This document shows positions 27,491 through 32,051 of a stretch of 64,000 bases of DNA, in pieces. The stretch comes from Streptomyces sp. NBRC 109706 (GTDB taxonomy: Bacteria > Actinomycetota > Actinomycetes > Streptomycetales > Streptomycetaceae): contig NZ_BBOM01000007.1 in assembly GCF_000974485.1 (NCBI RefSeq), positions 744,001 to 808,000 on the forward strand. Direction: 5' to 3'. The notes beneath the pieces are model-generated. The model searched no databases. It saw only the letters and a program-made list of their open reading frames with translations, and had not been told where the DNA came from. Position numbers and translations under genes: made by a program. Numbering within the stretch: position 1 is the stretch's first letter; every line of letters begins with the position of its first letter.

Positions 27491-28300
27491 TCAGTGCGCC
27501 TCTTCGAGGGCCTGGGAGATGTAGGAGGCGGCCAACACCGTGAACACATACGCCTGGAGCGCCTGGATGAACATCTCGAAGAGCGTGACGAGCAGCGTCA
27601 CGAGCAGCGAGGAGATCGAGAAGAACGTCCCGATGACGGTACCCAGGGTGTACCAGGTGCCGATGGTGAAGACCAACAACAACAGGTGGCCCGCGAACAT
27701 GTTCGCGAAGAGCCGGACCGTCAACGTCAGCGGCCGGATGAAGACGTTCGAGAGGAACTCGATCGGCGTGAGGATCACATAGATGCCCTTGGGCAGACCC
27801 CCGGGCACACAGAGGTTCCTGATGCCGCCGACCAGACCGTGGTTCTTGAACGTCAGGAACATGTACGTGGACCAGACGATCAGCGCGAGCGCCGCCGGAT
27901 AGGCGATGATCGAGGTCGCCGGGAACTGGGCGAACGGGATGATCGCCCAGATGTTCATGATCCAGACGAAGAAGAACAACGAGACCAGGAGGGGCACATA
28001 GGGCTCGCCCTTCTTACCCATGGTCTCGCGGGCGACGCCCCGGTGCACGAAGTCGTAGCCCGCCTCGGCGATCATCTGGAGCTTCCCCGGCACCACCTTG
28101 GGCCGGGCGAAGGCCGTCCAGAAGAACCCGCAGATGATGACGGTGCTCAGAAACACCAGCGCCATCGGCTTGTTGACCTCGAACGACCCGATGGTGAACA
28201 GCGGCTCAAAGATGAACGACCACTCAGACGGGGCGGGGAAGCCACAGTCCTTGAAGAGATGGCAGTCGGTCTCGAAGGCGAGCACCTGGTCATTACTCAC
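27491..28300 (-). CDS. atpB: ATP synthase F0 a subunit
   Basis: 269 residues from GTG 28298-28300 behind GGGAG. About five to six membrane helices. The essential Arg lies in IRPLTLTVRLFANMFAGHLLL, and the C-terminal helix FEMFIQALQAYVFTVLAASYI is the other channel-forming element. It conducts protons against the c ring. Confidence 0.98.
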   Translation of the reverse strand: MSNDQVLAFETDCHLFKDCGFPAPSEWSFIFEPLFTIGSFEVNKPMALVFLSTVIICGFFWTAFARPKVVPGKLQMIAEAGYDFVHRGVARETMGKKGEPYVPLLVSLFFFVWIMNIWAIIPFAQFPATSIIAYPAALALIVWSTYMFLTFKNHGLVGGIRNLCVPGGLPKGIYVILTPIEFLSNVFIRPLTLTVRLFANMFAGHLLLLVFTIGTWYTLGTVIGTFFSISSLLVTLLVTLFEMFIQALQAYVFTVLAASYISQALEEAH

Positions 28301-28526: not shown

Positions 28527-28964
28527 TCATGGGGAACCACCCGGCGTGACGGCGGCCCGGTCGGTGTCGGCCTCAGGCTCGACGTAGAGGATCTTCGCCG
28601 TGAGATGGCTCCGGGCCTGCCCGGCCAGCCAGACGACGGTACCCACCACGACACCGATGGCGAACGCACGCCCGTTGAGGAAGTCGGCGTCCTTCAGCAA
28701 CACCAGCAGCAGGAGCAACAGACCCATCTGCGTGGTGTAGATGAGGAACGCCGCGCCGAGGAAGAGCTCCGGCCAGCGTTGTCCCACATAGCCCAGGGAG
28801 AGCAGCCCGATCGCGAAGAAGGCGGCGGCCACGAAGACTCCGAGCGCCGTTCCTCCCGCTCCGGAGGCCCCAGCCAACAGCGCGGCGACCACGGTGGCGA
28901 CGGCGCCTACGGCGGCAGTGGGGATCGCGGCGCCTCGGATGATCCGGGCGTCGATGGACTGCAT
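28527..28964 (-). CDS. atpI: AtpI-like membrane protein, first gene of the atp operon
   Basis: 145 residues from ATG 28962-28964 (GGAG ten bases upstream); an in-frame GTG at 29016 would add 18 residues but has no ribosome site. About four membrane helices (AVGAVATVVAALLAGASG, ALGVFVAAAFFAIGLLSLGYVG and others), then a cytoplasmic acidic tail. Position before atpB and topology match AtpI, which helps c-ring assembly in some bacteria. The 226-base gap to atpB holds no gene that I can see. Confidence 0.88.
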   Translation of the reverse strand: MQSIDARIIRGAAIPTAAVGAVATVVAALLAGASGAGGTALGVFVAAAFFAIGLLSLGYVGQRWPELFLGAAFLIYTTQMGLLLLLLVLLKDADFLNGRAFAIGVVVGTVVWLAGQARSHLTAKILYVEPEADTDRAAVTPGGSP

Positions 28965-29018
28965 GGAAGTGTGACTCCGACGGGCTTGGGGACTGTCGTC
29001 GTTGACGAGCGGTTTCAC

Positions 29019-29179: not shown

Positions 29180-30568
29180 TCACGACCTGGTGTCGATCTT
29201 CCGGCGGACCGCGAACCGCTGCCGGTCCCCCACCGCCGTGGCCCCGTTCAACCCGGGCGTCGGCCGATCCTGCCGGGCGCCGTCCGAGCCCCGCGCCGGC
29301 TCCTCCGCCGGCTGCGCCGGCTGCGCCGGCTCCAGCCGGCGGGTCGGCTCCTCGGCCCAGGCGCGGGCCGCCGGCTCCGCCGGACGCGCCGGCCCGTCCT
29401 CGCGCCGCACCCGGTAGCGGGGCGGCACCAGCCGCTCGGCCCAGGACGGCACCCTGGGGGTGAACCGGGGCAGCAGCAGCGCCACCAGACCCACCGCGGA
29501 GAGCCCGACCACCAGCGGCACCACCCAGGCGTCGGAGCGGACCGAGTACCCCACCGCGCCGAAGGCCACCAGGGCCGACCAGAAGTACATGATCAGCACC
29601 GCCCGGCTCTGCGAGTGGCCGATCTCCAGCAGCCGGTGGTGCAGATGCCCCCGGTCGGCGGCGAACGGCGAACGGCCGTTCCAGGTGCGGCGGACGATCG
29701 CCAGCACCAGGTCGAGGAAGGGCACGATGATGATCGTCAGCGGCAGCAGCAGCGGCATGTAGACGGGAACCGTCGTGCTCACCGCGCTCCGCTCCGAGCC
29801 GGCGAACAGCTTGAGCGCGTCCGGGTCCACCTGCCCGGTGATGGAGACCGCGCCGGCCGCGAGCACCAGGCCCAGCAGCATCGAGCCCGAGTCGCCCATG
29901 AAGATCCGCGCCGGATGCACGTTGTGCGGCAGGAAGCCGAGGCACATCCCCACCAGCACGGCGGCGAAGAGCGTGGCCGGGGCCGCCGCCTCGATGCCGT
30001 AGCCGTACCAGATGCGGTACGCGTACAGGAAGAACGCCGCGGCGGCCACGCACACCATGCCGGCCGCGAGCCCGTCGAGGCCGTCCACGAAGTTGACCGC
30101 GTTGATGGTGATCACCACGATCGCCACGGTCAGCAGCGTGCCCTGCATCGGGGTCAGCGCGACCATGCCGACGCCGGGCACCGGGAGCCACAGGATGGTC
30201 AGCCCCTGGAGCACCATCACCCCGGCGGCGATCATCTGCAGGCCCAGCTTGACGAGCGCGTCCACCCCGTACTTGTCGTCCAGCACGCCGACCACCCAGA
30301 TCAGCGCGGCCCCGGAGAGCAGCGCCTTGGGCTCGTCCGAGAGCCGGAACACCGCGCCCACGTTGGTCAGTTGGGAGGCGACCAGCAGGCCGGCGCAGAG
30401 GCCGCCGAACATCGCGATCCCGCCCAGCCTGGGCGTGGGCTCACGATGGACGTCACGCGCCCTGATCGGTGGCATGGCCCCCCAGGCGATGGCGAACTTC
30501 CGCACCGGGCCGGTCAGCAGGTAGGTGACGGCCGCCGCGACGCAGAGCGTCAACAGGTATTCGCGCAC
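29180..30568 (-). CDS. Undecaprenyl-phosphate sugar-1-phosphate transferase, WecA/TagO/MraY family
   Basis: 462 residues from GTG 30566-30568 (GGGG upstream), giving MREYLLTLCVAAAVTYLLTG. About eleven membrane helices. Family motifs are RDVHREPTPRLGG, NAVNFVDGLDGLAAG, IFMGDSGSM and ADRGHLHHRLLEIGHSQ, which bind UDP-sugar, magnesium and polyprenyl phosphate. It should start a cell-wall glycopolymer on undecaprenyl phosphate. The last ~100 residues are a low-complexity Arg/Ala/Pro/Glu-rich cytoplasmic tail not needed for catalysis. The gene lies just upstream of the atp operon, as in other streptomycetes. Confidence 0.94.
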   Translation of the reverse strand: MREYLLTLCVAAAVTYLLTGPVRKFAIAWGAMPPIRARDVHREPTPRLGGIAMFGGLCAGLLVASQLTNVGAVFRLSDEPKALLSGAALIWVVGVLDDKYGVDALVKLGLQMIAAGVMVLQGLTILWLPVPGVGMVALTPMQGTLLTVAIVVITINAVNFVDGLDGLAAGMVCVAAAAFFLYAYRIWYGYGIEAAAPATLFAAVLVGMCLGFLPHNVHPARIFMGDSGSMLLGLVLAAGAVSITGQVDPDALKLFAGSERSAVSTTVPVYMPLLLPLTIIIVPFLDLVLAIVRRTWNGRSPFAADRGHLHHRLLEIGHSQSRAVLIMYFWSALVAFGAVGYSVRSDAWVVPLVVGLSAVGLVALLLPRFTPRVPSWAERLVPPRYRVRREDGPARPAEPAARAWAEEPTRRLEPAQPAQPAEEPARGSDGARQDRPTPGLNGATAVGDRQRFAVRRKIDTRS

Positions 30569-30702
30569 AAGCTGCCCCAGAGGTCTCGCTGGTCTACCGC
30601 GCAACACCCTCTCATGCCCCAACCCCCACCTCGGCGCCACGCAAGGGCGGTTATCGGCCTGACTCCAGCGTAGGCCCCGCCCCGCCGGGCGGCCGAAACC
30701 GC

Positions 30703-31407
30703 CTAGACCGCCGCGTTCCCGGCATCCGTCCGCCGCGCGGGCACCCCGGTGAGCGCGGTGACCACCGGATCCAGCGCGACCCTGATCTCCTCGCCCACGC
30801 TGCGGAAGTAGGGCAGCGGGGCGCCGTACGGGTCCTGCACCTCGTCGGCCTCCACGTTCGGCGCCAGCAGCCAACCGCGCAGCGCGGCTGCCGCCCTGGC
30901 CAGCGCGCGGGCGCGGTACACCAGCGCCTCGGGGGAGCCGGCGGCCGGCAGGGTCGCCAGGTCGATGGCACGCACCAGCCGGGTGAACTCCTTGAGCGTG
31001 AAGGTGCGCAGCCCGGCGGAGTGCCCCATCGAGATCACCTGGGCCCGGTGGTCCCTGGTGGCCGTGAGCACCAGATCGGCCTCTATCACATGCTCGTCCA
31101 GCAGCTCCCGGCCGAAGAACCCGGACGGGCTGGCGCCGTACTCGGCCAGCAGCTCGGCGGCGTGCTCCTCCATGGGCGCGCCCTCGTGCCCCCAGGTGCC
31201 GGCGCTCTCCACCACCACGCTCCGCGCCCGGTCGCCCAGGCGGTCGACCAGGGCCTGCCGGGTGAGACGTTCGGTGATCGGGGAACGGCAGACGTTGCCC
31301 GTGCTGACGTGCAGAATCCGGAAGACCGGGGTTTCGGGGCGACGCCCGCTCGCGGTGCCGGGCGCCGCTATGCCGGGGTCAGGGGGGCCCTCAGCGGAGG
31401 CCGTCAA
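30703..31407 (-). CDS. Low-molecular-weight protein-tyrosine-phosphatase-like protein with Ser replacing the nucleophile Cys
   Basis: 234 residues. The fold is evident from ILHVSTGNVCRSPITERL, the LMW-PTP P-loop; DPYGAPLPYFRSVGEEI supplies the general-acid Asp-Pro. In active enzymes the loop reads V-C-x-G-N-x-C-R-S. Here the first Cys is Ser35 (AGC, bases 31303-31305) while Cys40 and Arg41 remain. It may be inactive, or bind phosphotyrosine or arginine-phosphate. The best start is TTG 31405-31407, which overlaps the stop of the upstream gene and implies coupling. The N-terminal 25 residues are low-complexity. Confidence 0.85.
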   Translation of the reverse strand: MTASAEGPPDPGIAAPGTASGRRPETPVFRILHVSTGNVCRSPITERLTRQALVDRLGDRARSVVVESAGTWGHEGAPMEEHAAELLAEYGASPSGFFGRELLDEHVIEADLVLTATRDHRAQVISMGHSAGLRTFTLKEFTRLVRAIDLATLPAAGSPEALVYRARALARAAAALRGWLLAPNVEADEVQDPYGAPLPYFRSVGEEIRVALDPVVTALTGVPARRTDAGNAAV

Positions 31408-32051
31408 TGCGTGGTCTCCAGATCGGGTACGACCTTGCGGAGCTCCTCCTCGCTCACCGCCCCGGCGCGCAGAAGCACCGGCACCCGTCCCGTGACGTCC
31501 ACGATCGAGGACGGCACGCTGTCCGGGGTGGGCCCGCCGTCCAGGTAGACGGCGACCGAGTCGCCCAGCATGTCCCGGGCCTGGTCGCAGGTCTGCGGTG
31601 CCGGCTTGCCGGTGAGGTTGGCGCTGGAGACGGCCATCGGGCCGATCTCCTTGAGCAGTTCGATGGCCACCGGGTGCAGCGGCATCCGCACCGCGACGGT
31701 GCCCCTGGTCTCCCCCAGGTCCCAGTTGAGGGACGGCTGGTGCCGCGCGACCAGGGTCAGCGCGCCCGGCCAGAAGGCGTCCACCAGCTCCCAGGCCAGC
31801 TCGGAGAAGTCCGTGACCAGCCCGTGCAGGGTGGTCGGCGAGCCGACCAGCACCGGCGACGGCACGCCCCGGCCCCGACCCTTGGCGCGCAGCAGCCCCG
31901 CCACCGCCTTGGCGTCGAACGCGTCGGCGCCGATCCCGTAGACCGTGTCGGTCGGCAGGACGACCAGATCGCCCCTGCGGACAGCGGACGCCGCCTCGCG
32001 CAGACCGTGCTTACGGTCGACCTCGTCCGCGCAGTCGTAACGCCGGGCCAT
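31404..32051 (-). CDS. L-threonylcarbamoyladenylate synthase (TsaC/Sua5, YrdC domain)
   Basis: 215 residues from ATG 32049-32051 behind AGGAG. The enzyme makes threonylcarbamoyl-AMP from threonine, bicarbonate and ATP for the t6A modification of tRNAs reading ANN codons. YrdC motifs: LVVLPTDTVYGIGADAFD near the N-terminus, KGRGRGVPSPVLVGS, FWPGALTLVAR and MAVSSANLTGKPA. No C-terminal Sua5 domain, so it is TsaC-length. It sits between prmC and the phosphatase-like gene in one minus-strand series. Confidence 0.96.
   Translation of the reverse strand: MARRYDCADEVDRKHGLREAASAVRRGDLVVLPTDTVYGIGADAFDAKAVAGLLRAKGRGRGVPSPVLVGSPTTLHGLVTDFSELAWELVDAFWPGALTLVARHQPSLNWDLGETRGTVAVRMPLHPVAIELLKEIGPMAVSSANLTGKPAPQTCDQARDMLGDSVAVYLDGGPTPDSVPSSIVDVTGRVPVLLRAGAVSEEELRKVVPDLETTH

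Follow-up and report, generated by a model that had tools for sequence, protein, structure and literature searches.

The window analysed here, a stretch of 64,000 nucleotides of Streptomyces DNA, carries a gene for a protein of the LMW tyrosine phosphatase (LMW-PTP) type in which Ser replaces the nucleophile Cys. The replacement is fixed in the genus, the remaining pocket is invariant and the dN/dS of the gene is low. Replacing Cys by Ser is the classical way to inactivate enzymes of this class and the standard laboratory trap. The lost nucleophile together with the guarded pocket led us to read the protein as a putative natural LMW-PTP-fold pseudophosphatase kept for phosphate binding, a reading that we hold with about as much doubt as belief. 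That it would bind phosphate, would have lost turnover and would take a phosphoprotein as ligand is what we infer from these observations.

The gene, its predicted fold and its locus

The features used in the analysis were as follows:
30703..31407 (-), gene of the LMW-PTP-fold protein; 234-aa ORF with a PF01451 match and a TTG start
31282..31311 (-), P-loop motif H33-V-S-T-G-N-V-C-R-S42, from the ORF translation
31303..31305 (-), Ser35 codon AGC at the nucleophile position, from the DNA sequence
30829..30834 (-), Asp192-Pro193 with the general-acid Asp of the DP(Y/F) motif, from the ORF translation
30844..30975 (-), insert that follows the FTLKEF region and precedes the DP loop; about 45 residues, with helix 159-175
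31404..32051 (-), tsaC (L-threonylcarbamoyladenylate synthase), TIGR00057 190 bits
32086..33078 (-), prmC, TIGR03534 241 bits
33035..34105 (-), prfA ORF, name recognised from sequence, synteny query
29180..30874 (-), wecA-like glycosyl-1-phosphate transferase ORF, PF00953 123 bits, true start inside the ORF
28527..29018 (-), atpI-like Cg1360-family protein, NF053722 48.6 bits (cut-off 40)
27491..28300 (-), atpB ORF, name recognised from sequence, synteny query

The P-loop stretch of the 234-aa protein reads FRILHVSTGNVCRSPITERL. A preliminary description of this DNA had placed Ser at residue 35 in the position of the nucleophile Cys and had the second Cys, the Arg and the distal Asp-Pro retained. 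Both statements were confirmed, with AGC at 31305-31303 within HVSTGNVCRSP and with Cys40, Arg41 and Asp192-Pro193; the coordinates it gave, 31303-31326, include Ser35 but span residues 28-35 only, whereas the motif lies at 31311-31282. Ser42 and Tyr194 are also present, and Cys40 is the sole Cys of the protein as read from the translation. The family profile PF01451 (LMWPc) matched at 63.6 bits (cut-off 23.2), and at E 0.001 it matched all 86 members of alignment A2; no NCBIfam model scored above its own cut-off against the phosphatase-like protein. The signature of active LMW-PTPs, C(X)4CR(S/T), lacks its nucleophile Cys here (Ser35), and the P-loop Arg and the general-acid Asp are in place as R41 and D192.

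An AF2 model of the window protein, built from an alignment of 86 sequences, had a mean pLDDT of 93.9. Its nearest solved structures were LMW-PTPs with YwlE first (4etn, Z 22.6, 1.5 A, 148 residues), and the top solved matches in Foldseek were 4egs, 4pic, 4etn and 4kk4, so that the model and the match to YwlE point to an LMW-PTP fold. The 148 residues align with YwlE across the model range 28-221, and the insert, of which helix 159-175 is visible in the model, is absent from YwlE. The phmmer match to solved LMW-PTPs, e.g. 4egs, was broken into residues 21-144 and 189-217; the insert of about 45 residues is also carried by the Cys orthologues.

YwlE/PtpB, the arginine phosphatase of Bacillota, would have its fold in common with the window protein (Z 22.6 and 22.4), but the latter differs by the Ser nucleophile, by Val39 in place of Thr and by the insert. 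Entry 4kk4 (Z 22.4 against the model) is engineered YwlE C7S, and its title contains the words 'with phosphorylated active site serine'. The loop of this mutant, VSTGNTCRSP, can be aligned with the window P-loop and has Ser for Cys at the equivalent site; the replacement in YwlE is man-made, whereas the Streptomyces Ser form is natural and fixed in a genus. MPtpA and the canonical LMW-PTPs share the predicted fold, the P-loop and the DP motif with the window protein, but they have a Cys nucleophile and no insert. The pI258 ArsC arsenate reductase also has the fold in common (1jf8, Z 16.9). It requires three Cys, and an arsenate reductase identity was rejected for the window protein with its single Cys. 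STYX and MK-STYX have the dual-specificity PTP fold, not that of LMW-PTPs. Both are described as eukaryotic pseudophosphatases in which the nucleophile was lost naturally and the pocket kept (excerpts of PMC4257672 and PMC5106787).

The start of tsaC at MARRYD was picked by comparison with locus L120. Its TGA stop and the TTG start of the phosphatase-like gene overlap, and from this overlap the two genes are probably translationally coupled. The wecA-like ORF also matched TIGR02380 at 117 bits, under the cut-off of that model. A conserved block, rho-prfA-prmC-tsaC-[ptp]-(rpiB)-(glyA)-wecA-like-(atpI)-atpB, was found around Cys and Ser forms alike. In most Streptomyces loci compared, glyA lies between ptp and the wecA-like gene; it is missing at 30500-30703 of the window and likewise from several others, among them L223 and L238. 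One actinobacterial locus (L127) has the order tsaC-ptp-rpiB-glyA, with an rpiB match of 195.6 bits. In B. subtilis, the gene order is ywlC-ywlD-ywlE-ywlF(rpiB)-glyA-atp. For S. aureus, ptpB is described as adjoining glyA (excerpt of PMC8001253). With tsaC, rpiB and glyA nearby on the actinobacterial side, the surroundings resemble the Bacillota arginine phosphatase locus, which makes the window gene a positional counterpart of YwlE/PtpB. The preliminary description had deduced envelope control from the tsaC and wecA-like neighbours. This found no support, since the same housekeeping block recurs around Cys orthologues across the phylum and the neighbours therefore say little on function.

Conservation of Ser35 and selection on the gene

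Ser occupied residue 35 in 392 of the 392 genomes sampled from Streptomyces and Cys in none, so that the conservation across Streptomyces orthologues by which the preliminary description proposed to check its reading was borne out. An exact DNA pattern, His-Val-Ser(AGY)-Thr-Gly-Asn-Val-Cys-Arg, accounted for 369 of them, and the 23 genomes outside it all have the gene and Ser (18 with TCC, 5 with AGC after Tyr). The orthologue was present in every genome of a narrower sample of the genus (101/101) as well as of the wider one (392/392). A sequencing error or strain oddity was rejected on these counts. Among the best 80 loci of a scan of named genomes, 62 were named Streptomyces and 61 of these had Ser, as did one locus named Kitasatospora; the lone exception, Streptomyces sp. 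HPF1205 (L286), clusters with Actinacidiphila on the tree.

For comparison of residues and rates, we used 150 Streptomyces rows and 65 Cys rows, which are the loci having all three genes (phosphatase-like gene, tsaC and prmC). L161 (same locus as L160) and the frameshifted L120 were omitted from them, G945 and G959 each stand twice among the 65 Cys rows, and species may recur between the named and unnamed collections. Residues 34-43 were identical in 150/150 Streptomyces rows (V34 and T36-P43 beside Ser35), as were W72, H74 and H120, while position 33 was His, in some rows Tyr. D192 was found in 149/150 Streptomyces rows (one gap), 65/65 Cys rows and 5/5 rows of another actinomycete family (f82), and Cys40 was invariant in the Streptomyces rows (150/150) and in the Cys35 rows (65/65). 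The only near-fixed differences between the two sets were C35S, A45T and A130S, with Ser130 also in 3/65 Cys rows.

The median pairwise dN/dS in Streptomyces was 0.16 for the phosphatase-like gene, 0.15 for tsaC and 0.14 for prmC (10,694 pairs), and in the Cys rows the values were 0.28, 0.23 and 0.21, respectively (2,008 pairs; Nei-Gojobori, the pairs being non-independent). Relative to tsaC, the ratio of the phosphatase gene was about 1.1 in Streptomyces and 1.2 in the Cys rows, a slight gain in constraint that does little for the binder reading. These rates indicate strong purifying selection of an ordinary kind on the Ser protein, not relaxed in comparison with its Cys relatives; nothing beyond this is claimed, because the dN/dS of the control genes shifts likewise. 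Decay of the Ser-form gene was rejected by the low dN/dS and the invariant P-loop. The tree requires 4 or more changes of codon class (AGY or TCN) at Ser35, and the residue was Ser in 150/150 rows. Moving from one class to the other takes two base changes, with Cys and Thr as one-step intermediates, neither of which was seen. As the codon class switches and the residue stays Ser, selection acts on the amino acid. Switching of this kind as a sign of repeated origin of Ser was rejected, with comparable numbers at Ser68 of the phosphatase-like protein (3) and at one Ser of TsaC (6). Taken from the alignments and the model, a fold that is kept, a nucleophile that is lost and a gene that is held by selection would correspond to a pseudophosphatase.

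Other observations concerned single assemblies and additional copies. The phosphatase-like gene is frameshifted at L120 (4436-5720; genome G374, assembly 94% complete), where the Ser loop is present, and genome G685 (90% complete) gave a split match to it (L160/L161); either assembly errors or true losses may lie behind these two cases. Some Streptomyces carry an extra homologue unlinked to tsaC (L134, L135, L404-L406), which keeps the nucleophile Cys and has its second P-loop Cys replaced by His or Tyr. The genome of the window itself contains a further LMWPc gene (L001) whose CSGNICRS loop is intact, and catalysis can therefore be supplied elsewhere; two more LMWPc matches on its contig C17 are 150-aa frames (L002, L003), perhaps arsenate-reductase-like.

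Cys orthologues and the origins of Ser

In the genomes compared outside Streptomyces and f82, the gene at this locus has Cys. Beside tsaC and prmC, Cys was found in 33/33 genomes from 16 other Streptomycetaceae genera, and elsewhere in the phylum, outside Streptomycetaceae and f82, in 40/40 syntenic rows. Seven of the 16 genera have a CTGN loop, eight CTGS (Asn to Ser) and one CTGNICRG. In the eight CTGS genera, 15 loci (L336, L338, L341-L344, L347, L350-L352, L360-L364) keep the nucleophile Cys with Ser for the P-loop Asn (CTGS[VI]CRSP), and in the one genome of genus g301 (L358), the Ser that follows Arg in the P-loop is replaced by Gly (CTGNICRGP). The Cys pattern HVCTGNVCR occurred in 38 of 394 family genomes, from three genera, none of them that of the window. 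The corresponding stretch of Actinacidiphila reads HVCTGNVCRSPMAERL, with 75-76% identity and the gene order of the window; this genus groups with g298, closest to Streptomyces on the tree (support 89). A set of 40 further homologues had 37 with Cys and 3 (L393, L396, L411) unreadable by the motif. A separate count of loci by a first motif had left out ten: seven Cys loci (L029, L134, L135, L171, L197, L213, L221), one Ser loop (L120) and one Cys locus seen twice (L014 and L121). None of the 15 genomes sampled from other families of the order (f71, f72) had a match at 1e-10, and the gene is either lost or too diverged there. The comparison of these sequences shows that Cys is ancestral and Ser derived at the tsaC-linked locus; the Cys orthologues point to this direction of change and are no demonstration of catalysis in Streptomyces.

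In f82, Ser was found at the tsaC locus in 5/5 genomes (its order holds 5 genomes), and six additional copies unlinked to tsaC have Cys. In the tree built from TsaC, PrmC and the phosphatase with the P-loop masked, the Ser rows of Streptomyces formed one clade (99) that lies within the Cys genera, and those of f82 formed a separate clade (100). This tree, which also gave the support of 89, had 121 rows and was thinned to 1/4 of the Streptomyces AGC rows and 1/3 of the Cys loci L302-L331. Constraining all Ser rows to a single group on the three concatenated genes cost 123 log-likelihood units (AU p 0.0005), whereas with the phosphatase gene alone one origin of Ser gave p 0.054 and missed rejection at 0.05. 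In an earlier tree, from which the Cys rows of Streptomycetaceae were absent, Streptomyces and f82 had grouped with a single long Cys row (support 90). The earlier, phosphatase-only and three-gene trees used hand-picked Streptomyces rows (17, 28 and 22, respectively). The origin tests were picked after a tree was seen and long branches are flagged in the trees, and for these reasons we regard two origins of Ser, in Streptomyces and f82, as likely rather than certain. For the Asn-to-Ser change (N38S), a single origin was rejected when its rows were forced together on the three-gene tree (AU p 8e-6), and at least three lineages at the tsaC-linked locus carry it.

Possible role of the pocket

We propose that the tsaC-linked locus ancestrally held a Cys enzyme, which would have exchanged its nucleophile Cys for Ser on the Streptomyces stem, and that the loss was probably repeated in f82. 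With the P-loop, Arg41, Asn38, Ser42, Trp72, His74 and Asp192 kept, the pocket should still hold phosphate, and the ligand would most likely be a phosphorylated residue of a partner protein, held without turnover. The preliminary description had suggested a natural phospho-binding protein, and this stands in part: Ser fixed in the genus and a pocket otherwise invariant speak for it, whereas the existence of Cys orthologues speaks against it by the refuting condition that the description itself had set. P-loop position 5 is described as setting the substrate type, with Thr for pArg and Ile for pTyr (excerpt of PMC8001253). The window protein fails the Thr rule of YwlE/PtpB, with Val39 in 150/150 Streptomyces rows, and the Cys orthologues at the tsaC locus likewise fail it (Val in 51 and Ile in 14 of the 65 Cys rows of the family). 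By residue type, Val39 resembles the Ile of pTyr enzymes more than it does the Thr of YwlE, and phosphotyrosine would for this reason be the first candidate ligand.

Against pure binding, the hydroxyl at position 35 is strictly kept, never replaced by Ala, Gly or Thr. Such retention exceeds the needs of pure binding and is compatible as well with a chemical role for Ser35; the general-acid Asp192 is retained though useless in a pure binder, which counts against the binder reading as well. Because of these two features, Ser35 chemistry stays a rival. In one form of it, Ser35 would attack a phosphorylated partner and keep a stable phosphoserine as a one-shot sensor or switch. We give this covalent acceptor a small but real chance: the title of 4kk4 names a phosphorylated serine in the active site, so a Ser of this type can take up phosphate, the hydroxyl is kept in 392/392 genomes and Asp192 is there, but 4kk4 represents an arginine phosphatase, whose specificity position holds Thr where the window protein has Val39, and no phosphosite data for the gene were found in a literature search of open-licence papers on SCO5363, which we take to be the S. 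coelicolor tag of the phosphatase-like gene. An extension, which we consider unlikely, is that Streptomyces and, independently, the second family hold a stoichiometric phosphate acceptor charged from a labile phosphodonor, a covalent phospho-switch with its expression coupled to t6A synthesis through tsaC. That Ser35 works as a slow, oxidation-proof nucleophile is quite unlikely, as Cys-to-Ser is established to abolish turnover normally in this class and another Cys LMW-PTP remains in the same genome; yet all other catalytic residues are kept, Ser probably arose twice, and Ser would remove the redox shut-off of the family Cys, described as vulnerable to H2O2 (excerpt of PMC8001253).

Two further explanations give Ser35 no chemistry. 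The protein could be a scaffold with its active site a relic, and the P-loop changes that arose independently within Streptomycetaceae (C35S, N38S on three or more occasions, S42G in a single genome) could be taken in this way, but residues 34-43 are invariant in 150/150 Streptomyces rows and we consider a relic very unlikely. It is most unlikely that Cys40, adjoining Arg41, took over as nucleophile. The nucleophile Cys is the usual redox partner of the second P-loop Cys, and Cys40 is invariant in 150/150 Streptomyces rows despite the loss of that partner; it is, however, equally invariant in the Cys35 rows (65/65). For the preferred reading, a phosphate-binding pseudophosphatase, it also has to be considered that N38S with Cys kept in three Streptomycetaceae lineages may mean that the pocket changes for another reason.

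Phosphoarginine has been reported in M. smegmatis, where, according to the excerpt of PMC9604228, its kinase and phosphatase were not identified, and in B. subtilis the McsB/YwlE pair is described as controlling how stable the t6A pathway protein TsaD is (excerpt of PMC7546277). Both may serve as leads, not as tests. A profile search for arginine kinase (PF00217) gave no match in the genome of the window and none in 14 control genomes either, so that the negative result carries no weight. The Cys orthologues at the tsaC locus are candidate phosphoarginine phosphatases, despite failing the Thr rule. The LMW-PTP fold, the locus and the meaning of Cys-to-Ser were already known, and no report of the Ser-form protein was found among the matches listed in a search of open-licence papers. 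As far as these searches show, a natural Ser-form LMW-PTP fixed in a whole genus is new; it has one origin at minimum and probably two, and three lineages with Asn-to-Ser stand next to it. For the genus, this means that a gene in 392/392 sampled genomes matches the phosphatase profile PF01451 without the nucleophile, and the name 'phosphatase' would mislead. Actinacidiphila, with the Cys form at a matching locus, makes a clean natural pair with Streptomyces for studying the passage from enzyme to binder, and with probably two Cys-to-Ser and three Asn-to-Ser changes at one locus, a role beyond turnover becomes testable.
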